From positions 20,604,527 through 20,668,526 of the forward strand of contig OX485808.1 in the NCBI GenBank assembly GCA_950295325.1: DNA of 64,000 nucleotides. The letters are read 5' to 3'. Below are positions 1-64,000 of the stretch, in pieces (the first letter of the stretch is position 1; every line of letters starts with the position of its first letter). This DNA is from Polytrichum commune. Lineage: Eukaryota; Streptophyta; Polytrichopsida; Polytrichales; Polytrichaceae. The notes under the pieces are model-generated. The model did not search any database. It was given only the letters and a program-made list of their open reading frames with translations, and was not told the DNA's origin. A program made the translations under genes and the position numbers.

Positions 1-2830
1 AAGGGTTGGCATATGTATTTGCGATCTCAATGTTGTAGTTGTGAGTAGGAGTGTTATAGTTTGGCATTTAATATTTTCATTTGTGAGTGATTATGGTATT
101 GTATTAGGAGGAGGAAGAGGAGGTGGTGGTCATATGATATATTATATGTGTGGAATAGGTCTTTTTCATGGATCCATTGTGGTGTAGTGTTAGGTGTAGA
201 CCAATGACAAAGGAATTTGTACCTACGTTTGGATGCACCCCAACTATCTTTGCGGGAGGAAGGTCTAGAAGAGGTTTTTTGGGGAGCATGGTATATATGC
301 TGCGCAATCTTGTTGTGGGTGTGAGGATTAATGGAGGGTTATTAATTCTATTAGAGGTGGAGGGTGGGTTGGAAGGATTGGGAGGGGAAATTGTGTTTGC
401 TTGTAGGAGGTCTTGCTTGATAATTTGGGATTTGGTTTGGTATTTATTTTGGAACTCTTGGTATGAAAGAATTTTATATTCATATAAGTCTTGCATGTGG
501 AGGATTGTGGTGATATTAAAAGAAGCTAGTTTGGCTAAGAACTTGGGTGTGTTAACTTTTTGGGAACATGTGAGTGTGGGGTAAAATGGACTATTGTACT
601 AATTCAATATGTAATGGTGGGGATTGGAGGGGGAATTTGGTATCCGTGGAGCCAAAGTGGATGTTGAATTTGTGTTTGAGAACGTATAGAGTTTGAGTAG
701 TGGGGGAGTGATGGCATGCACATTGTTTGAGGTTGGGAAGATATTTACACCACCATGTTTAGTTACTATATACTTAACTAAGCCTGGGTATATGTCACCT
801 AGTGGTCCCAAGTCGTTTAGTGTTTGGGAGAAATGTTTTGCTAGATATTAGCATATCTTGGTAGGAGAGATTGTGTTCCTATGCTGAAGGTGTCGTGGGG
901 AAGTTTGGTGAATATATTCGCAAAACTAATGGGGATGCGACATATTTGTTTGGTAAGTTTTATTAAGAGTTTATCTAACTTGGTGATGATGGGGATAGAG
1001 AAAAGGGCAACATAGAAAGCGTATTTGATGCTTGGACGCATTTAGTGAGGATAGATAGGTCATCTACATAGCTTGTAGTTGAAATTTTGGAATTTGATGT
1101 TGTGAATTTATAACCCATGGAGTCTTTTATTAGTCATCTTAGTAGGGGTTCTAGGAAGACTATGAAGAGGTGGGGGGATGTGGAGGTTTACTTGTGGTTG
1201 TGTTGGGATTGTAGTAGGCAGGTTGATGAAGCCTATGACTTGTTGGGTGCGTTGTAAGGAAGAGGAAAAGATGTTTATTGCCATGTATAGGAATTTAGAT
1301 TGAAGGAGGTGAAGAGAGGGCATTTGTCTTTGTGATAGTTGTTCTTGGATATGATTGTGTAGGGCATCTAGAGATTGGTCATTGATGACTGTGTTGTTGA
1401 GTATGTTTGGATGGATGTAGAGGTAGTAAGGGGTTCCGGTGTTGGTGATTCATGATGAAGACGTCAAAGGAGAGTTAGTTTGTGGGGAGGAAATCCGGTG
1501 GCTAGTATTGTATTGCATTTTGAAGGGGATAGATTGATGGATGTAATGAGCATAAACATGAGAACATGGTGGAAGATGTTGCGAGGAGAGAGGCACGACA
1601 ATGAAGATGGGGATATTTGTGTGTTGTTTTTATGCTTGGGGTCGAGGTTGGGGCATATGAGTGAGGAAGTGAGAAGATAGGAGTGTATATTCATGTTTGA
1701 GGGTTGTCACATTTGGGAGAAAGTAGTATTTTTTGATAGGCTATGAAGGTGGGGGAGGGGGGGGGGTAAGTGACACATTATGTGAGTGGTGATAGGTCCA
1801 TGATTTGTTTCTATATCACCAGCAAGGGTCTACATGGATGTAGTGTCCCATATATAGAATTTTTTCCAGGTTGGATGTGGATTTTTATGGTGGCAAGAGG
1901 AAGGGAAGAGGAATGAGATGAAAATAGGGTGGTGACATATTTGAGGGGATATGGTTGGTAAATAGGGGTAATGTTGTGAGGGAAGAGATAGGGAAGGTAA
2001 CAAAGGGTTGAGTAGGATTAGTGGCCATGGAGGTCGGATTGTGAGTGTGAAGGGTTTTCCTTGGGGGTATAGGTGTTTAGGGGGATTTTACATGATGTTG
2101 TATTGATGGTACATTAAATACGATATTTATTGTTTGATTATATTTAATGTTGTTACCACCCTACCTTGCTCACCACTAATTTTCAATTCCTTGACAATTA
2201 GAGTTAGAAGATATACTAGAATATATGCCGGAATTCTCCTTTTATCATTATTATTTTATTTTTTCTCATATCCTTACTAACACTACATCAAACATGTAAC
2301 TTCCACATATATATTACCATAGTAGATACTCAGTGTTTAAGTTTTCATTTAATGTTACTTACTTTCATAGGCTTATTGACAGTTAGTGTATGCATTCATA
2401 TTTAGTGTATGAAACACTAAATATCATACTTAGTGTAGTAGTAATACTTGGGTGATTTTACTGTGGAAGAGGGTAATGGTATTAATGCATATGGGAGGAT
2501 TTGGAAATAAAATAAAGGGGGGATGCGTTATGCTTATTGGAGATTGTTGAATTTTTGTGTGGGTTGGTGGGAGTGATAGCAAGGTCGCGGAGTGGGCTAG
2601 AATGGTAATCGATATTCTTAGGTTTAAACGTGTTGTAACGTGGGGTTGTGATTGTGTAGCAGTGGCATTGATAGTATGGGGTCTATGTTGATAATGGGGG
2701 TTGGGGCATTGAAAAATGTAGTTGGTGGGATTGTTGGTGTATGTACACTTTTTGTTTTGAAACAAGGGGGGAGAGTGGGGTCCAATTAAGATTGGTGCTA
2801 ATAGTGAGCAATATATAAACTAATGTTGGT
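1..2830. other. Strand-asymmetric, C-depleted intergenic DNA
   Basis: No gene is supported here. On the plus strand G is very common and C rare over roughly 1-2080 and again 2450-2780. In the 60 bases from 1141 I count about 3 C against well over 20 G, and the 60 bases from 361 are similar. Open frames occur on both strands (for example 168-584 plus and 104-496 minus), but they follow from the lack of C and match no family I know. A run of G lies at about 1755-1766. The stretch 2080-2450 is AT-rich without the skew and holds the small palindrome TTTAGTGT/ACACTAAA near 2400-2418. Confidence 0.5.
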
Positions 2831-45700: not shown

Positions 45701-45940
45701 CGAAAGCGCGACCATTTTTTTGGATTGGAAGAGCGCAGGAGGAGGAGCAGCGACAGAGGGGGAGCGAGCGAGACTCGCACCAGAGACTCGGGTAAGCAGG
45801 CGCCATAGCCTGCCTACCTCGTGCTTCACTCACACAACACACAACACACAGCACACAACACAGCACAACCTCACTTTTCCACAACTTACTCTCACTCATT
45901 TATCTCGCTTTGAGACGAGACTCGACACGACGCGCCGGCG
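45700..45940 (+). promoter_or_regulatory. Probable eIF4B core promoter and 5' leader
   Basis: GC-rich DNA up to about 45830, then a CACAACACAACACAC-type CA-rich tract (45831-45875) and a pyrimidine-rich stretch (about 45868-45900) just before the ATG. This is typical of a plant 5' leader. The transcription start is not determinable from sequence. Confidence 0.4.
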
Positions 45941-48900
45941 ATGTCGAACAAGCCAGTGTGGGGCGCGGGAGCATGGGCCGCAGAGGCGGAGCTAGCGGAG
46001 CAAGAGCAGAAGGAACGGGAGCAAGCGGCGTACAAAGCGCCCGGGAAGGTTGAGGCGTTCCCGTCCCTAGGGGATTCGCTAAGCACCAAGCCAACGAAGA
46101 AGAAGAACAAGGGGCAGACTTTCTCCCTATCCGAGCTCACCGTCGGGAAGTATGTCGGTCCGGGGGGCAAGAGCCACAAGAGTTACACGGAGAGCCAGAA
46201 GCTGACCACGGAGGAGCTTCTGTTCCTCCCCACTGGGCCGCGGGAGCACCGCGACGAGCCGGAGATCGGCGGTCTCGGAGGCGGGTTCAAGGATTACGGG
46301 GGGTTTCGCGCGAATAGCGATAACAACAGCAGGGACGATAATAGCTCCCGAAGGGGAGGGTTCGGGGGAGGGTTTGCAGGAGATAGAGATGATAGTACTA
46401 GAGGTGGAGGAGGGTTTGGCCGTGACAGGGAACGTGATAGAGATGACGGCCCCTCTAGGGCTGATTCCGAAGACAAGTGGGGCGCTTCGAAGAAGTTTGT
46501 TCCGACTCCTGCTAATGATAGCAGAGGAGGAGGAGGAGGTGGTGGTGGTGGTGGAGGAGGAGGAGGAGGTTATGACGATGATCGCCGTGGTGGTAGCAGG
46601 CTGAGTGACCGGGATCTTCCTTCCCGGGCCGACGAGGTTGATAACTGGGGTTCATCGAAGAAGTTTGTGCCCACGGCACCGGCTTCCCTTGCTGGCGGGG
46701 ATGGTTACAACGAGCGCAGGCTGTCATCTGGTGGCAGGTATGGCTATGCACATGGCTGGTGATGTGTTGGAGGTTTAATTTGTCGTTTCCCAGATCAGGT
46801 CGGAGTTAGGGTTTCCAGTGCCGGTGGCATAGTGATGGTTTTTTGATCTGGGGTGGGCGGGGGTGGGGTCGGTGTTCTGGTGATGGTAGAGGTGATGTTT
46901 GATAGCCATTTTGACATGGTCTTGCATTTGTTGTGTGTTTGAGTGTGAGGGTTAGGTTGGGGCATCAAGAAAGTGAGAATAGGTCGTGGGGGATGGTTGG
47001 TGTGGTGTGGAGTGGGAATGAGGTACGGGGGAATCATGAAGGCAGCTGATTTAGTATGGTTTTTTTAATCTAGTATTGGCGGTGGGGAGGAGGGGTTTTT
47101 TAATGTTTTGGTGGTGGTAGAGTTGATGATTGATGGCAGTGCTGACATGGGTTTACATTTGTGGGAGATGTGAGTGTTAGGTTGGGGTACGAAGAAAGTG
47201 AAAAGAGGTTGAGGGGGAATGGTTGGCATGGTGTGGTGTGGTTTGGGAAGGAGGGGACTCATGAAAGGGGAGCTTATTTCTTGGCAGGTACGAGGAGCGC
47301 AGACATAGCTTGGGAGGAGGAGGATACGAAGAGCATGGGGGTGGTGGTGGTGTCATTTCGCGAGCCGATGAAGTGGATAACTGGGGAAAAGGGAAGAAGT
47401 TTGTTCCAAGCACAGCTCCCCCTAGCCGTGTAGGTGGTATGGGAGGAGGAGGTGGTGGTGGTGGTCTGGACTCCGCATACAAGGAGGCAGGCTCTGATGC
47501 AGACCGATGGGCACGTAGAGATCCATTGCCGCGTGTAACCGAACAGCCCCGAGCCACAGAACGGCCTCGCCTAAACCTTGCTAAACGAACTGTACCTGTG
47601 GAAGGCGGTGTTACTGTGCCAGCTCCTGCTGCTGCTGCTGCCGCCTCCGAGACCAATGGCGAGAAGCACTTGCCACCAGTTGGGGACTTGACCCTAACCG
47701 ACGATCAGCAGCAGCAAGCCCCGGTTGTGAAGCCCAGACTTCGCTCCAATCCTTTCGGAGCTGCACGCCCTAGGGAGGAAATCCTAGCTGAGAAAGGTCA
47801 GGACTATCGTAAAATTGACGCTGACCTTGAGGTCCACAAGGAGAGGTATGGAAGGCCTGGTAGTAGGCCCTCTAGCAGCCACTCAAGCCGTCAAGGTGGT
47901 GGTGTTACCAGCCGACCCCAGACCCCAGGGGGCGTTTCCAGCAGACCTCACACCCCCGATGTTGGTGCCCGATCAAGACCAAACCCTTTTGGCGAGGCTA
48001 AGCCGCGGGATGTTGTCTCCATTGAAGAGAAGGGCAAGGACTGGCGCATGCTGAATGTTGACCTGGAGCGACGTCTAGCTGAAGAGAGGTAGCCCTTCTC
48101 TCATTTAATATTTTGTTCCTCTTCTGCCCTTCTCTCCTGGAAACTCTTATATCGGGCAGTGGCAGCTTTCCCCCCCTTTTGTTCCTCTAATTGGAGGTTC
48201 TGGAAATTACAAAGCTCTTCTTTAGAAGAGAGTTCAGTTGGGCCATGGATTTTTGCATGGCTTTGTGGTCATATATAATCACTTGTATGGCTAGAGCTAT
48301 TTCATCACAAGTTGCACAGGGCAGCTGATTGTCAGAATGTGCTTCATGTGTTTCATTAGTACATATGTTGTTGGTAGTTTGAGATGTGTTATTGCAGGCT
48401 AGGTTTAATTCGGAATATGTACCTTGCATTGAGACAGATTTTGATGTTTGTGTGCAGATAGTCTCTGCAGTTAGGTCTGCACTTTCTCATGGCGTATAGC
48501 AATGATTAGTTAATAAATTTTAATCGATTTGCCTAATTCTTTCTCATGTGTGGAAGCTGCTGTGTTATTCATGGCAGTTTGAGGGTCAACTTGTGTTTAA
48601 CTTTCTCTCCAAATATCTTGTCTTAACATTTTAGGTCTTACCAAAATGTGCAAAAGGATAGTCTTGCAAGTACCCCTAGTGTAGTTTAGGGTTTAGGTTC
48701 CTGTGGGGTTCAGTTGTCAGTGATCATTTAATACCAATTCCATTAGTTTTTTTTAGTTACTTGGATTCCATAGATGTTTGCTCTTTGACAAACAGCTTAT
48801 GTTTCAAGGTTGACCGTATATGTGCATCCTTTACAGCTTTGCTTCTGAATTATAGTGATCAAGTGTTGTGGTTTTCCAAAGAGGTGATTTTGCTTTCCTG

Positions 48901-52910: not shown

Positions 52911-54175
52911 ATGTGATCTAAATACTTGGACAATCACTTGCAACAAAGATAATAACAGAGGGGAAGTTCATCATGAGAAATAATGTCAATATTTTCATGC
53001 TTGATGTAATGTTGGGTGTCTTGTCCGACTGGCAATTTTTATCATGAAAGACTCTTGATTTTTTTTATAATTTAAAACATCCGTGCTTTACAATGTTTTT
53101 TTTTGATTGTTGTAAAAGTTTCAAAATTTTGCAAAATTTACAAGGATGATAAAGCTAATCCTTATCATTGCACATGTGTCATCAATAACATTCTTCAGCC
53201 ACAATCAATGTTTGGTTTCTATTCACATCAAAACCTTGTCTCCTCCTTGTTTTTGCATACTGCATATTCAAACCAATTGTATAGCATTTACCCATGTTGG
53301 TTCTAGCATTTATCAGCATCCACCTCACCTAGTTCCTCAAGAAGCGAACAAGGTGATCCCATTGAAGAATGTTATGTCTCATATTTACCTCTATAGCTGC
53401 AAAATTGATTGCAATTTTTTCTTGATGCTTGTTTATGCTGTTCAACGAACAACTCAATATGCTACATAAACCATCCCACAAAATGTCACACAATTTGTCA
53501 ATTCCTTCATATCCTCATTTTCAGTAAACTAATATTTAGTTACCAACATTAGAGCCCACCACCAAAAGGTGACATGAGCCTCCATGAAAAGATGCTCTCA
53601 TTCATGATGGCTTCTTCAAGTTATATGTGTGCATTATTATTGGCAACCAACATCTTGCTATAATAGTTATGAATGTTATAAATATATTGGCGCACATTAT
53701 TATTGAATGTACAAAAGAAACACTCAGTATTTTGTGTGCTTACCACACTTGCAATTTTTGGAATCACGTGAACACTTCTGATTGTATGAAAACCTGAGAA
53801 AGACAACAACGTCAATGACTAAGAGTCAAGACTCTACAACAACTTCCATTTCCAATATGGAAATACTGGTGATATTTCTTAAAGAGTCCTAAAGTGGCCG
53901 TACCTATGTTCACATGGCTGTAAATAGAGGTGAAACGCACAATATGGGAGGCATATTTATACGTGCAATTCATTGCAGTAGCCAGTTGTTTCAATAAAAA
54001 TAATGAAGAATGTTGCCAAATTATGAAGGATCACAACCATGTATTACGGCAAGATTGCTTACTATAAGTTCATGTGTAAATAACGCCACACCAGATGTGC
54101 ACTGGATACAAGTAATTAAAAAGGAACACCAGGGAGAACACAAATCACATGACTAGCAGCTTAGTTGATGAAGAA
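52910..54175. other. Intergenic, nothing identified
   Basis: Overlapping plus frames at 53103-53469 and minus frames at 53621-53994 show no recognisable domain. I searched this stretch by eye on the minus strand for kinase motifs (HRD, DFG) that could continue the LRR relic, and found none. Confidence 0.35.
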
Positions 54176-54197: not shown

Positions 54198-54319
54198 CAG
54201 AAACCGAGGGTTATGGAGATCGTGACTCACCATGAATATTTTGAGTGCTTCTTGGGCACAATTCCAGTCAAACAATTGCTACTCACGTCCCTGCCCAAAG
54301 AACCATGAACCCACAAATT

Positions 54320-55110: not shown

Positions 55111-55910
55111 CTCAAGGTTTGAATTCCTCAAATCATGTAAAAGTATATGGGCCTTATGTGGTCACTCTTGTAATTTGGATACCTATTTTTCGGTGATAAA
55201 TGATAAGGCTCGTAGTTAACAATGGACACCCCCAAAAAAAATGTCATAATGAGATTGGACTTTGTGCTCAAAATATAAACACTAAGTTCAACACTAAACA
55301 TTCTTGAAAAATTTAAGGTCTAGGTAATCTTTTCAAGGGAAAGAGAATCTTCACTTTGACCTCTTATAAACCTTTGAATCTCAACTCTAATTCCAATACG
55401 TGAAATAAATAACGACCTTTGTGATTTCCATTTCGTAACTAGATGATATAATTCCCACAATTCACTGTGGAGTTGAAAGTGCCCACAATAGGGCCACATA
55501 TGATTAGAATAGAGCAAAGGCTTTAAAAAGAATAATATGATGATGCCTGTGCTTGAGATCGAAACTCACAAAAGGTCAAACTTGGAGATGTGTGTATGAG
55601 GAAGTTGGCCGCTGAAGTAATTGTTTGCCAAGTTTCTGCTTGCTCACATCCCACAACGTCATCAAATTCCTCTCCACAAAGATTGCTTGTCATCTTAAGG
55701 TATGTGGGTGCTATGTGGTTCTTTTTTTTTATGTTCTCCAACTTCTACCGATTAGATTTACACAACAAAAACTCACGTTTCATGAGTAAATCTAGGATAA
55801 AACATCTGCAAAAATCAGATTGAAAATTAGATCTCCCTAGATTTAGTTATGCTTACTGAAAGTGCATGTTTGTTGATATCGTAACTGGATACACATGTCC
55901 TCTCGATTGT
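55110..55910. other. Intron or intergenic DNA of the LRR relic, nothing identified
   Basis: Antiparallel frames at 55523-55741 (minus) and 55590-55823 (plus) have no recognised motif. Confidence 0.3.
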
Positions 55911-56293: not shown

Positions 56294-56589
56294 GAACTGC
56301 CAATAGGGTAGAATGGTCGATTCGGAAAATGCTATTAATATATGAATGTGTTGCACAATACGATTCGTAATGTTGGAAATTGTGTTGAAAAAATGGTGGG
56401 TGGTGGTGCACTCACAACGATTTCACGTGCGACTTGAGAAGTGCTCGTGGGATGCGGCCTGCAAATTTGTTGTTACTCAAATTCCTGGGCACCCGATCGA
56501 AGCAAGTTCCAAGTCAAGCGAAACGAAGCCTTGATGGGATCGATGCGTGTGTGCGAGGACAATTTATCACACGGGTATGATCAGTTTTA

Positions 56590-56815: not shown

Positions 56816-57855
56816 TCGGTGTTCATTGTGTTGAAGTGTAATGTAGTCATGTGTTGGCCTCACTGCATTCATTGGGTTTTCATGCTTGGTAGCATGTAGA
56901 AAGACATTCATGCTAATGCTAAACCTTATATTTACATGATTCGATACATATCCAAGAATCTCTAATCCCTTGCAAATTGGAGGCTTTAACGTACAGAGTC
57001 TGGAGGTTGGGCAAATGATGTAGCTCCCTTGGCATTTCTCCCGTAAATGCGTTATTTGACAAGTCTCTGTTTCCACCAAAGGCCCAAGAATAAGAATAAA
57101 ATAAAATGAAACAAAGTAAAAATAACATTGGTGATTTTGTGCATTGACGTGTATGGGAGCCTGTTCTTTTCAAACCCTGATCATGTTTTACCAAGCTTCA
57201 GGGTAAGGGCACTTCTTTCCTTTCGGAAGGTGGGCTGCTTACCCAAAATGAAAATTTTAGGGTTTTGTTTTGCTACACTAAAATAGGAATGTACAACCAA
57301 AAGAATGAAAGTAGTCCAACCAGTGTAACTTCTACACATGCTTCCAATGAGAAAGGGAGTGAATGACTAAAGGAGTTGAACGTACAAATGCTTGAGTTTT
57401 GGGAGGTCGTTGAAAGTTAGGGGCCGCGAGTTGATCCTGCATCCACCGTTGCATGTTTGAGTGATCCCACTTGGCTATGACAATGTTCAATGCATGCATT
57501 CTCTTGTTAAAATCAACTACAATACAAGATAAGAAAGTTGCGATTTTGGGGTTCGGTGTGCTCACTTTGATGCTTTGCTTTCCAATAGGTGCCGGGATTT
57601 TCCCACCATCTTGCTTGATTCTTGCGGTTTCAGACCTTTTGTTTCATCGCAAGGTGGGCCACTTGGTCTATACTTTCCATCACAATGATGTAAGATACTT
57701 CACACTATATCGAATCACATTCTAGTAATCTACCTATCTTATTGCGTTAAAGTTACCCCTGAAGAATCAAGCAATGACCACAACTAGAGCGCCAACACTA
57801 TCAAAAGTTAACATAGGCAATTGTCTATTTACAAGCGAGGATTGGAGTAGAAAGC

Positions 57856-60301
57856 TTACATGGGCTCGCCTATAGGTGGGAACTTAGGATAGCTGTACTC
57901 AGGGAGAGGAGGAAGACTTGGCATAGTGAAATTGGGAGGAGTGAAGGGAGGGAGTGGAGGTAATGTAGGGAGTGTGAAGTTAGGAGGTGTGATTTGGGGC
58001 CAAGGAGGGATTTCTGGAAATGTGAAATTAAAAGGTTGGGGTAGAGGCGGAAAAGTTGGCATGGTAATGTTGGGTGGTGTCCATGATGGTAAAGGTGGAA
58101 TGGTCATATTGGGAGGGGTAAAATGAGGCAAAGGAGGCAGCCCTGGAAAAGTGGAGTTTGGCATCAAAGGTAAGGGTGGAAGGGTTGGCATCGTAAAATT
58201 GGGTGGTGTCCATATTGGCATAGGTGGAAGGCTTGGCGTAGTTAAATTAGGAGGGCTCCATGATGTTAGAGGAGGGAACGTAAAATTGGGAGGGGTAAAT
58301 TGAGGCATTGGCGGAAACTCGGGAAGAGGTGGGAGACTTGGCATGGTTAAATTCGGAGGTGTCCACAATGGTAGTGGAGGGAACGTAAAATTGGGAAGAG
58401 TAAATTGAGGCATAGGCGGAAACTCAGGCAGAGGTGGAAGTGTTGGCAAAGTAAGATTAGGAGGTGCCCAAGATGGTAGAGGAGGGAATGTAAAGTTGGG
58501 AGGAGTAAATTGAGGCATCGGTGGGAATTCCAGAAGTGGTGGAAGGCTTGGAATAGTTAGATTAACATGGGGGAACTCAGGAAGAGGTGGAATGGTTGGC
58601 AAAGTCAAATTAGGAAGTGTCCATGATGGCATTGGAGGGAATGTGAAGTTGGGAGGGGTAATTTGAGGTATAGGTGGGAATTCTGGGAGTGGTGGAAGGC
58701 TTGGCATAGTTAGACGAGGAGGGGTCCATGATGGTAGAGGAGGAAATGTAAAATTGGGAGGGGTAAATTGAGGCATAGGCAAAATCTCGGGAAGAGGTGG
58801 AATTGTTGGCATAGTGAAATTAGGAAGGGGCCATGATGGTATCGGAGGGAATGTAATGTTGGGAGGGGTGAATTGAGGCATTGGTGGAAACTCTAGAAGC
58901 GGTGGGAGGTTTGGCATAGTTAGATTAGGAAGGGTCCATGATGGTAGTGGAGGAAATGTAAAATTTGGAGGGGTAAATTGGGGCAATGGTGGAAGACTGG
59001 GCATGGTGATGTTGGGTATTGTCCATGTTGGCAAGGGTGGGAAACTAATGTTGGGAGGGGAATATTGAGGTAAAGGTGGAACACTTGGCATGGTAACATT
59101 TGGTTGCTCCCATGTGGGCAATGGTGGGAGGGTTGGTATTGTGAAATTTGGAGGCGTCCACATTGGCATCGGTGGAAGAGTAGATATGGTGATGTTTGGA
59201 GGTGTAAATATTGGTAGCGGTGGAAGAGTAGGAATGGTGATGTTTGGAGGTGTGAATATTGGTAGCGGTGGGAGAGTAGGAATGGTGATGTTTGGAGGTA
59301 TGAATACTGGTAGCGGTGGAAGGGTAGGAATTGTGATGTTTGGAGGTGTGAATATTGGCATTGGTGGAAGAGTAGGCATGGTGAAGTTTAGAGGTGTTAA
59401 AATTGGTAGGGGTGGAAGAGTAGGAATGGTGATGTTTGGAGGTGTGAATACTGGTAGCGGTGGAAGAGTAGGCATGGTGATGTTTGGAGGTGTCAAAATT
59501 GGTAGCGGTGGAAGAGTAGGAATAGTGATATTTGGAGGTGTGAATATTGGCATCGGTGGAAGATTAGGAATGGTGATGTTTGGAGGTATGAATGTTGGCA
59601 GCGGTGGAAGGGTAGGAATAGTAATATTTGGGGGTGTGAATACTGGTAGAGGTGGAAGAGTAGGAATGGTGATGTTTGGAGGTGTGAATACTGATAGCGG
59701 TGGAAAGGTAGGAAATGTGATGTTTGGAGGTGTGAATACTGGTAGTGGTGGAAGAATAGGCATGGTGAAGTTTGGAGGTGTGAATACTGGTAACGGTGGA
59801 AGAGTAGGCATGGTGATGTTCGGAGGTGTGAATACTGATATCGGTGGAAGGGTAGGAATGGTAACGTTTGGAGGTGTCAAAACTGGTAGGGGTGGAAGAG
59901 TAGGAATGGTGATGTTTGGAGGTGTGAATACTGGTAGCGGTGGAAGAGTAGGCATGGTGATGTTTGAAGGTGTAAATATTGGCAGCGGTGGAAGGGTAGG
60001 AATAGTGATATTTGGGGGTGTGAATACTGGTAGAGGTGAAAGAGTAGGAATGGTGATATTTGGGGGTGTGAACACTGGTAGAGGTGGAAGAGTAGGAATG
60101 GTGATGTTTGAAGGTGTGAATATTGGTAGCGGTGGAAGGGTAGGAATAGTGATATTTGAGGGTGTGAATATTGGTAGTGGTGGAAGAGTAGGAATGGTGA
60201 TATTTGGGGGTGTGAATACTGGTAGGGGTGGAAGAGTAGGAATTGTGAGATTTGGAAGGCTAAATACAGGTAAAGGTGGAGTAGTTGGAAGTGTAACATT
60301 C
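57856..60301 (-). CDS. Proline-rich, sequon-rich repeat protein, terminal exon
   Basis: Large terminal exon, stop TAA at 57856-57858. It encodes about 814 residues of repeats. From the N-terminal side, about 24 near-identical 16-residue units of the type FTPPNITIPTLPPLPV run to about 59160. Longer units follow (about 33-43 residues) that add SWTPPNLTMPSLPPLPEF and PPMPQFTPPNFTF, ending PKFPPIGEPM. Almost every unit has one N-x-T/S sequon (I count about 49). There is essentially no Lys, Arg or Cys. Proline-rich repeat proteins of plants are usually secreted wall proteins, but this lacks extensin SPPPP and does not match PELPK. The exon opens at an AG acceptor (TGTGCAG|G), not at a methionine: no ATG precedes the repeats in this frame after the upstream stop. 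Signal peptide and start lie upstream. Confidence 0.82.
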
Positions 60302-61763
60302 CTGCACAATTTATCATAAGATGTTAGAATGCATGAGGCTTAAATATCAATAATCAATATGTACATTAAGACAAAATACTTTGACGCACAACAATTGTTG
60401 AGGTACATATAGTAATGTAGAAACATCCAATCTACTTCATTGCTCACATTTAATTGTAGAAGTTAATACATGGGCAAGGTTAAGGGGTTGTTTCATGGGA
60501 TTCAAGTCATAGTGGTTATGATTCATATCATGTCACCCATTCAACTAAATGTAGTTGTATCTTATGTTTTTAATTTATTCTTTGTACATGTAGTTGCCAA
60601 TTTGTGTGTTGTTTTCTCTATATTTATGTGAGGCTCCTTCAATGTTTGCATAAATTTGTGACATCTATAAAGATGGATGTCACATGAATCATATTTCCAA
60701 TGTAAATTTTATGTTCCTAAGGAAGTAAACTTGTGTATGTAATTTATGTGAGTACCATACTAAAATTGATGTATGTATTTGTGAATTGATTATGTCATTA
60801 TAGAGTTGTGAACAAGAACTAAGTTATCATCATTTAAAATATGGCTATTAGAATAACTAGTAAGTAAGTTATCATGTTTATTAAACATTTGGTGAGTTAC
60901 TTAGTCATCATGTACGTTGTGCACAAAGTATTCAAAATAATGTGGTATTAGAAAAATTAGGATATTGTTATTTGTGCTAGAAAATTGACTTGTATTATGG
61001 AATAAAATATTCTCAAGTGATGTTTATTTACAAATACTTGAATTTGGTGTTATAATCATTGTACCAATTGCACATTGATGACACAACTGGGTTATGTAAC
61101 ATTTGTCCATGATACTTGATATAAGGAATTACACTCACAATGAGGAGATTAGGGTGGGAGGTGACAATGAAACATATTCAATGAAACATAACTATTGAGG
61201 TTCCCATATGAATTTTTTTTGATATTCATTTTGAAAATGAGGTGTTAAGTTACTCGAAGAACACCGATGTAGACAACTAAAATCAAGATGAAATTAATAT
61301 ACATTTATGCCTTATTAACATGGTATCCCACATAAGCATGCACCTTATTTGGGTGAGCTCCACCATGAAGCCATAAGCCACCTACATTGTCTTAAAATTC
61401 CTTATCCTACAATTATATGAATTAAGGTGATTAGCCAACACTTGGATGGGAAATATGCAATCAATGAACATGCACAAAAGTTCAAAGACATAGTGTAGTA
61501 AAAACTACATTTCTTTATTCACAATGATATAGTATAAGAGCTTGGAGCACCAAAGTCTTTGATGGGGAGGCTTACGATGCCGGCGTAGATGGGACAGGCA
61601 TTGCAATGGGTGTTATGTTCCTACATACATCATCATCAATGTCATCAATATAAGATGCTCACTTGTGCTTAACGCTTAAAGATTCCAAGTTGCCATTCCA
61701 CAAAATACATTTTTCACAAGCCCCCAACAAGTATTAAACCTAGGTTTCACTTAATTATACTTA

Positions 61764-61893
61764 CACTACAAGCATTTGAGTCCTAGGCAATTGTTTTGTG
61801 TCACTGCAAATTTGCAAATCTATCAGATTGGTAGATTTGCCTTGTTCTTGCACATGCATAGGACAATTGCCTAGGACTCATATGTTGGTAATG
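61764..61893. mobile_element. CACTA-like mini-MITE, copy M4
   Basis: The 130-bp palindromic element starts CACTACAAGCATTTGAGTCC. Its right end on the other strand is CATTACCAACATATGAGTCC. Both continue TAGGCAATTGT. Flanks are TTA and CTA. It is the best preserved copy of the M family. Confidence 0.65.
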
Positions 61894-62031
61894 CTATGGG
61901 ATTAAAACTATATGGGCTTTACAACCACTACAATTTTTTGATTACCCTCGTATAACAATATCCTATAAACATTAAATTCCCAACTGCGCCATTGCATTAT
62001 AAAATATCCACCAACGCAACTTGTAGTTTAA

Positions 62032-62460
62032 GGGTGAGTTTTCATGTAGGCCGCTCGGCCACTAGATTATTCTAGATAATAGTAGGTCTAAAGTGCTCAC
62101 ATGTAGTTAAGCGCAAGCCACCATCCAACCACCATTTGGCAATCTACTAGAATGTGGAGGGCCGTGGACACATGCTGCTAGATTTCAAATTATGAGCCCA
62201 CTAAAGAATCTTTAATCTACAAGTGCCAGTCACCAAAGGATTAAGACCAGTTGAAGACTCAAACGAACCAATATTAGTCCAGAATTCCATCCTTGGTAAC
62301 CTGAGGAGGAGGTTAATAAGTGGGCCCAGATTTGAGAATATGGGAGCAGCTAGTTGGCACGTATGAACCCTACCCCACCATATTCCCTCTACATTTGGAC
62401 AGGGTTGTCCTTATTCACACTGGAATATGATGGGCGAGCGGCCTACATGGAAACTCACCC
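62032..62460. mobile_element. Harbinger-type MITE with TAA duplication
   Basis: The 429-bp element has left end GGGTGAGTTTTCATGTAGGC. The right end on the other strand is GGGTGAGTTTCCATGTAGGC, both continuing CGCTCG. TAA lies at 62029-62031 and 62461-62463. A 60-codon frame at its right end (62354-62536) is not a gene. Confidence 0.85.
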
Positions 62461-62936
62461 TAAGTCAAGGATTTTGCTGAACCTTATTGTGAGTCATGTG
62501 CAGCTGATTGAGGTAAAACCTGCTTTAGCTTATTGATGCTGTTGGGAAAAATGATGTTTTTGAACTGACAAGTCTATATGTGAAGCTTACAAATTTGGGG
62601 TTGTCCAGTTGATTGTAGGAGTAGCATTCCTGTTTCAAATGAAAGAAACATTTAACAATGTGGTATCTTTAAAAAGCTTAAAGCTGTCATCTCTTGAACA
62701 CTCTACTTGTAGTTGTCACTGAGATCTTTCCGTCATCTGAGGTAATTTCTATCTACCTAAGCAGCACCAAAATTATAGGTGCGTTGTTATTAGGTACAGG
62801 TGGAGGTATCCAATCAATTGCAGGAAATGATTTGTTAGATGTTGACCTATTTCAAGTGTCAGCATTAAATTTCAAGAGTCATTTTGACATATTTGATTGA
62901 CTTTCTGTGATCAAATGCTTAACAATTAGAACTCAC

Positions 62937-62984
62937 AGTGGTGGCAGTGGAGGGAAACTTGGCAGCGGAATAGTAATGTTGGGA
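62937..62984 (-). CDS. Proline-rich gene, 48-nt mini-exon
   Basis: Acceptor TTGCAG, donor GTGAGT, phase 2 at both ends. It encodes PNITIPLPSFPPLPP plus the split codon CT|G (Leu) into the terminal exon. The same motif grammar (PNITIP, PPLP) as the terminal exon supports it as coding. Confidence 0.78.
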
Positions 62985-63163
62985 CTGCAATAAACATAGC
63001 AAAACTTCAAGTGAGATTTACAAACAACTGAAGAGGAGGGATGACGTACAGAAGGGAATTTGAAACTTGGAAAATTAAAAAACCAGTATTCCCTTATGGT
63101 GTGCGACTTGTCCAGAGAATTTTAATCTTGAGCATGTGTGTTCATGTGTGATTTGAAACTTAC

Positions 63164-63190
63164 AGTGGGAGGTTTGGGATTGTCAAATTC
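63164..63190 (-). CDS. Proline-rich gene, 27-nt mini-exon
   Basis: Acceptor ATGCAG, donor GTAAGT, phase 2 at both ends. It encodes NLTIPNLP plus a split Leu codon on each side. At nine codons it is near the lower size limit for plant exons. Confidence 0.7.
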
Positions 63191-63409
63191 CTGCATTCAA
63201 TCAATTATAATGACCATCAATACTGATGCCATGTACCATGGAATACCAGGATTTGTCTGGACACATTAAGAGACGAGATTATGGAAAGGGTTGAAAATCT
63301 ACAAATTGTGATGCGCAATCTAGTAAAATCTGGACAAGTAAATCAAGAAGCAGGCATGTCTAGCTGCTCCAATTACATGACTCAAGATTATGGGTTATGA
63401 GTCGCTCAC

Positions 63410-63463
63410 AAGGGTGGCAATGTTGGTATTGTCCAGTTGACCAGATTAGGAGATGAGATGTTC
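63410..63463 (-). CDS. Proline-rich gene, 54-nt mini-exon
   Basis: Acceptor TGACAG, donor GTGAGC, phase 2 at both ends. It encodes NISSPNLVNWTIPTLPP plus the split codon TT|G (Leu). Exons further 5', with the start codon and any signal peptide, must lie upstream (higher coordinates) and probably beyond position 64000. Confidence 0.7.
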
Positions 63464-63840: not shown

Positions 63841-64000
63841 TCTACTCCCTCTTCATTAATGTATAAATTGACCCCCTAAAATGTAGGCAATTATTTATAA
63901 TGTGCACAACAAGTTGCCCAGCCAAATGTCTGTCTTCTGTAGAAAAAACTTGATTGGCAGGGTGAAGGTTTGGAAAGGAGTGGGAGCTGACAATGGTGGT
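63840..64000. other. Window edge, unresolved
   Basis: Read on the minus strand, an AG at about 63987 is followed by a frame with SFPNLHP-like text. It could be a further exon of the proline-rich gene, but no donor in the right phase was found. Confidence 0.2.

Follow-up and report, generated by a model that had tools for sequence, protein, structure and literature searches.

The locus studied here in Polytrichum commune raises the question of whether a series of very short, proline-rich exons forms a gene of its own or belongs to something larger. The stretch of DNA analysed, hereafter the window, comprises 64,000 nucleotides (C6:20604527-20668526), and the genome searched was a 408-Mb assembly of seven contigs of 42-78 Mb. 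In plants, LRR (leucine-rich repeat) proteins with proline-rich partners connect the cell surface and the wall; the gene predicted at this locus would place a proline-rich part within the LRR ectodomain.

The predicted gene and its LRR exons

The first-pass annotation of the window described three mini-exons leading into a giant terminal exon, the whole being taken as a stand-alone proline-rich gene. Actually, LRR exons lie on both sides of the proline-rich insert, here and in a paralog on contig C5, so the proline-rich part is not self-contained and the gene probably continues past the long exon. The predicted gene occupies 21.5 kb of the minus strand, between a point some 11.2 kb beyond position 64000 and about position 53744 of the window, and its 34 joined exons give 1545 codons with no stop and GT-AG at every intron. 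From the N-terminus onward, a signal peptide, an LRRNT_2 cap and four LRRs precede a proline-rich insert of 1215 aa, which is followed by the GPPCDE exon, five LRRs and a Cys cap. One phase-1 and one phase-0 intron are present, both ahead of the second LRR exon, all others being in phase 2. The features are as follows, in window coordinates unless the contig is given.

C6:20668583-20679755 (-), remaining upstream exons of the gene model
63992-64000 (-), window portion of a 66-nt mini-exon (C6:20668583-20668518) that extends past the last position
63410-63463 (-), 54-nt mini-exon NISSPNLVNWTIPTLPP, phase 2/2
63164-63190 (-), 27-nt mini-exon NLTIPNLP, phase 2/2
62937-62984 (-), 48-nt mini-exon PNITIPLPSFPPLPP, phase 2/2
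62591-62629 (-), 39-nt mini-exon NATPTINWTTPN, phase 2/2, overlooked at first pass
61576-61620 (-), 45-nt mini-exon NITPIAMPVPSTPA, phase 2/2, overlooked at first pass
57860-60301 (-), 2442-nt internal exon of 48-nt tandem repeats (TPPNITIPTLPPLPVF) with 49 N-x-S/T sequons
57566-57667 (-), 102-nt GPPCDE exon PSGPPCDETKGLKPQESSKMVGKSRHLLESKAS, conserved in the C5 paralog (GGPPCDDDK...SRHLLES)
57386-57436 (-), 51-nt LRR exon INSRPLTFNDLPKLKH, phase 2/2, C5 counterpart likewise of 51 nt
56995-57066 (-), 72-nt LRR exon DLSNNAFTGEMPRELHHLPNLQT, phase 2/2 (Pfam, paralog, gene model)
56416-56484 (-), 69-nt LRR exon NLSNNKFAGRIPRALLKSHVKS, phase 2/2 (Pfam, paralog, gene model)
55570-55635 (-), 66-nt LRR exon NLANNYFSGQLPHTHISKFDL, phase 2/2, C5 counterpart not found
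54231-54290 (-), 60-nt LRR exon DVSSNCLTGIVPKKHSKYS, phase 2/2 (Pfam, paralog, gene model)
53744-53793 (-), C-terminal Cys cap exon FSYNQKCSRDSKNCKC, C5 counterpart VLYARKCSRKLKH

A start exon had been expected beyond position 64000, and a signal-peptide exon was indeed located there, at a distance of about 11.2 kb (C6:20679755-20679668; leader sequence MAGAAVNLLSLLLLGSTFLSFAYADLASEG). The C6 and C5 models both open with an ATG exon coding for a hydrophobic leader, as read by eye, and LRRNT_2 is matched in both (Pfam, E 2e-7 in C6 and 1.5e-10 in C5). LRRs on both sides of the insert are supported by Pfam, with LRR_1 reaching E 2e-15 on the C-terminal block, while the 2442-nt exon alone matched no family up to E 1. 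Both models finish at a phase-1 donor, and the C6 Cys cap exon can alternatively be read as open until a stop after GKHTKY. Downstream of the Cys cap in C6 and C5, neither a further conserved exon nor a membrane span or kinase, nor any convincing conserved pair, was found; a malectin-like domain was absent near the locus among the scored matches. Taken from the sequence, the most probable reading (roughly 0.7) is that of a secreted or cell-surface/wall LRR protein, in which the proline-rich, sequon-dense insert would serve as a length-evolvable, extended glycoprotein linker.

Mini-exons and the end of the long exon

The 54-nt (63463-63410), 27-nt (63190-63164) and 48-nt (62984-62937) exons proposed at first pass are present at these positions; each is bordered by AG and GT and starts and ends in phase 2, and the Leu codons split at their junctions are TTG, CTT and CTG. 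They look real, and represent three of the 20 symmetric mini-exons of the larger predicted gene, which range from 27 to 66 nt, sum to 981 nt and are all multiples of 3 in length; missing from the earlier list were two that lie between position 62937 and the long exon, and 15 further upstream. That the mini-exons read into the long exon in frame was correct, but not the direct junction 62937>60301, which would be a double skip because the 39-nt and 45-nt mini-exons sit in between. All mini-exons being symmetric in phase 2, the arithmetic of frame-neutral skipping stands for each of them, and variation by splicing is possible insofar as exon lengths allow it.

The clustering of these mini-exons far exceeds chance. 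In an untrained scan of 50 kb, 22 proline-rich exon candidates were retrieved in phase 2 on the gene strand, where every other combination of strand and phase gave 0-2. A scoring model likewise gave 22 candidates in 12.2 kb on the gene strand and none on the opposite strand; 84 kb of control DNA yielded 0-1 for any strand and phase, and 30 first-order Markov shuffles yielded none at the same cut-off. The untrained scan is the stricter and cleaner test, since the splice-site weights of the scoring model were trained on these very exons; the phase-0 and phase-1 matches of that model on the gene strand probably represent these proline-rich exons read in other frames. A 24-nt candidate (C6:20666968-20666945) was dropped with a score of 12.9, below the cut-off of 22. 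Besides, an imperfect inverted repeat with 46-nt arms (76%), possibly a small transposon remnant, lies in an intron at about window 61764-61893, and another with 179-nt arms (94% complementary) in the LRRNT-LRR1 intron (C6:20678292-20679052).

Regarding the long exon, its supposedly terminal position is explained by the way it ends, namely GAG CCC AT|GTAAGC at 57860, where the in-frame TAA (57858-57856) falls inside a phase-2 donor. Any phase-2 GTAAG donor reads NNG TAA, so the apparent stop comes from the donor itself, and internal exons can thus pass for terminal ones. The long exon of C5 (1845 nt) has an equivalent end, CCC TT|GTAAGT, and the exon is probably internal. Antisense to the long exon, the window also holds an open frame of 416 aa (59069-60319, plus strand, GGRVGMVMFGGVN repeats), which most likely results from the repeat composition.

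The same TAA, together with an LRR to proline-rich order recalling leucine-rich repeat extensins, could be taken to mark the boundary of two neighbouring genes, i.e. an LRX-like gene, with LRRs and a proline-rich tail, that stops with the long exon or shortly past it, and then a separate LRR gene. Such an arrangement is improbable, considering that the TAA lies within a strong donor in both paralogs and that the GPPCDE exon lies just 192 nt from the long exon and 129 nt from the LRR exon that comes next, with no sign in either gap of a further signal-peptide exon or LRR N-cap. Besides, the frame is open throughout and the exon order is the same in C5. A single LRR gene interrupted by a proline-rich insert is the reading retained below.

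The C5 paralog and the growth of the insert

Comparison of both loci in all reading frames revealed that LRRNT, LRR, proline-rich, GPPC and LRR exons succeed one another at C5:32348404-32357659 as they do in C6. In C5, 18 exons with GT-AG introns join into an open frame of 1034 codons; the junction between signal peptide and LRRNT requires there another acceptor than the one first suggested by the alignment. LRR exons 1-7 are equal in length in C6 and C5 (37, 107, 75, 63, 51, 72 and 69 nt), the last one measures 60 nt in C6 and 63 nt in C5, and no C5 match was found for the 66-nt LRR exon of C6; the C-terminal block counts five LRRs in C6 and four in C5. Across LRR exons 1-4, pN is 0.23 and pS 0.74 (dN about 0.27, dS near saturation); the duplication is therefore old and the protein conserved. 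A proline-rich query of the genome matched the C6 and C5 loci only. With an LRR query, identity of at least 60% was likewise confined to these two loci among the best candidates scored, and the other listed matches, at 25-42%, are as would be expected of generic LRR genes.

The inserts differ in architecture, C5 having only four mini-exons versus 20 in C6 and a long-exon repeat unit of 69 nt versus 48 nt. On the upstream side of the gene, outside the window, mini-exons of 39 + 57/60 nt form pairs that are repeated, introns included, at intervals of about 408 bp, which indicates that the upstream array grew by tandem duplication of exon and intron together; another series of pairs (45 + 57/63 nt) comes next. 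Between the two closest 408-bp units, none of 99 exon sites differ, against 24 of 484 surrounding intron sites, and over the units in general exon divergence is just modestly below intron divergence. The mini-exons nearest the long exon bear no such trace of duplication that could be found, and the long exon expanded through in-exon repeats. The earlier proposal that repeat units seeded exons, or that introns entered a repeat array, is thus not favoured for the upstream array, where exon and intron were copied together. A decayed mini-exon copy, SPPPPISTSPPPLAIN, is also present in this region (C6:20670423-20670373), with an intact donor.

Could the whole then be a decaying gene, or a repeat spread by transposons, the exon-like pieces of which are no longer spliced? 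The acceptor of the copy just mentioned is lost (GCAG to GCTG) and the introns contain repeat-like inverted sequences, but decay of this kind is hard to reconcile with 1545 codons free of stops, with a pN/pS of 0.35 among the 48-nt repeat units in the coding frame, where changes fall mostly at third codon positions, with a pN far under pS between the LRR exons of the paralogs, and with a proline-rich query matching just two loci genome-wide. It appears even less probable than a pair of genes. The least probable reading, and a very unlikely one, is the original picture of a self-contained proline-rich gene with mini-exons derived from the 48-nt repeats and an N-terminus varied by splicing, for while one mini-exon is exactly 48 nt long with the PN(I/L)T...LPPLP grammar and all are skippable in frame, LRR exons stand on either side, only 1 of the 20 mini-exons has that length, introns travel with the upstream copies, and C5 has mini-exons yet a 69-nt long-exon repeat.

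For a single LRR gene with an insert, the uniform phase finds a simpler account in inheritance from the LRR exons, since those flanking the insert share both phase 2 and split-Leu borders with the mini-exons. Split Leu codons occur at 16 of the 32 phase-2 junctions in C6, with a binomial P of 4e-7 that is nominal only, the junctions not being independent because some exons are duplicates. This suggests that the mini-exons adopted the phase of LRR exons; that they descend from LRR exons would be a guess.

Proposed role and comparison with known systems

The C6 insert, made of a 222-nt exon, the 20 mini-exons and the 2442-nt exon, contains 34.9% Pro, 70 N-x-S/T sequons, 12 SPPP+ motifs, 4 Tyr and no Cys over its 1215 aa; that of C5 has 60 sequons over 721 aa, with Pro at 35-36% in both inserts. 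Provided that splicing occurs at the predicted sites, as we infer, mini-exons and long exon would encode an insert interrupting the LRR ectodomain of a plant protein, either secreted or at the cell surface, in which both LRR halves are conserved folded modules. Judging from composition, the insert is most likely an extended, polyproline-II-like and heavily glycosylated rod or linker, which could provide reach or a wall-embedding segment between the LRR halves. Its length shifts by tandem duplication, either of phase-2 exon+intron units or of repeats within the exon, and such changes keep the frame because every unit is symmetric, in the same phase as the LRR exons. This single locus displays how symmetric exons allow a linker to grow without frame loss, and it offers a testable case of whether the length of an extracellular protein in plants is tuned by copying or skipping of exons. 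No description of such a gene was found in the portion of the literature searched, which is in itself weak evidence.

Known island domains of LRR-RLPs/RLKs are under about 100 aa, while the present insert spans some 720-1215 aa, is proline-rich and is followed by no detected kinase or membrane span. The layout is otherwise comparable, as a non-LRR insert breaks the LRR series ahead of a short C-terminal LRR block in these receptors (PMC10834447) and, in the gene models, the insert stands between N-terminal and C-terminal LRR blocks. With LRX/PEX proteins (hybrid extensin class HEX, PMC3149072), the predicted protein shares a leader, read by eye, an LRR domain with an N-cap (LRRNT_2/LRR matches) and a long proline-rich stretch, the SPPP+ motifs of which recall extensins. 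Unlike in LRXs, this stretch is located between two LRR blocks and distributed over many exons, Tyr residues are few and N-x-S/T sequons dominate over Ser-Pro repeats; rather than a C-terminal extensin domain (Ser-Pro3-5 with Tyr) ending the protein, LRRs come after the insert in the predicted model. On sequence features, it resembles LRXs in parts and falls outside their definition.

Outside plants, the PEVK region of titin is a proline-rich spring encoded by many short duplicating exons, in which length changes tune the mechanics (PMC6469411). Here too, a proline-rich part lies between folded modules, with many short exons multiplied by duplication, whereas titin is an unrelated protein of animal muscle and the moss insert is predicted to be glycoprotein-like. 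The insert would act like a spring or spacer, as PEVK does; a full plant counterpart of PEVK, i.e. a glycosylated proline-rich spring with a length tuned by mini-exon skipping and evolving by exon-unit duplication, is a rather doubtful extension of that idea. Schistosome micro-exon genes (MEGs) also have many short symmetric exons skippable in frame, mainly of 36 nt or less and forming most of the gene (PMC8293314). The present gene is unrelated and differs in having large and LRR exons as well, and, while its mini-exons are all symmetric (20/20), with 27-66 nt only one of them is within 36 nt.

As for the surroundings, frames resembling plant eIF4B by eye (MSNKPVWGAGAWAAEAELAEQEQ...) are found on the other strand, downstream of the LRR gene (window 45914-48092, plus strand). 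Over the first 2000 nt of the window the GC skew is very strong (0.60), and an open frame of 164 aa lies there at 104-598, minus strand. In the genome, AAA_6 exons of dynein heavy chains were located at about eight loci, in keeping with a land plant that has motile sperm, and DUF247 genes are present too.
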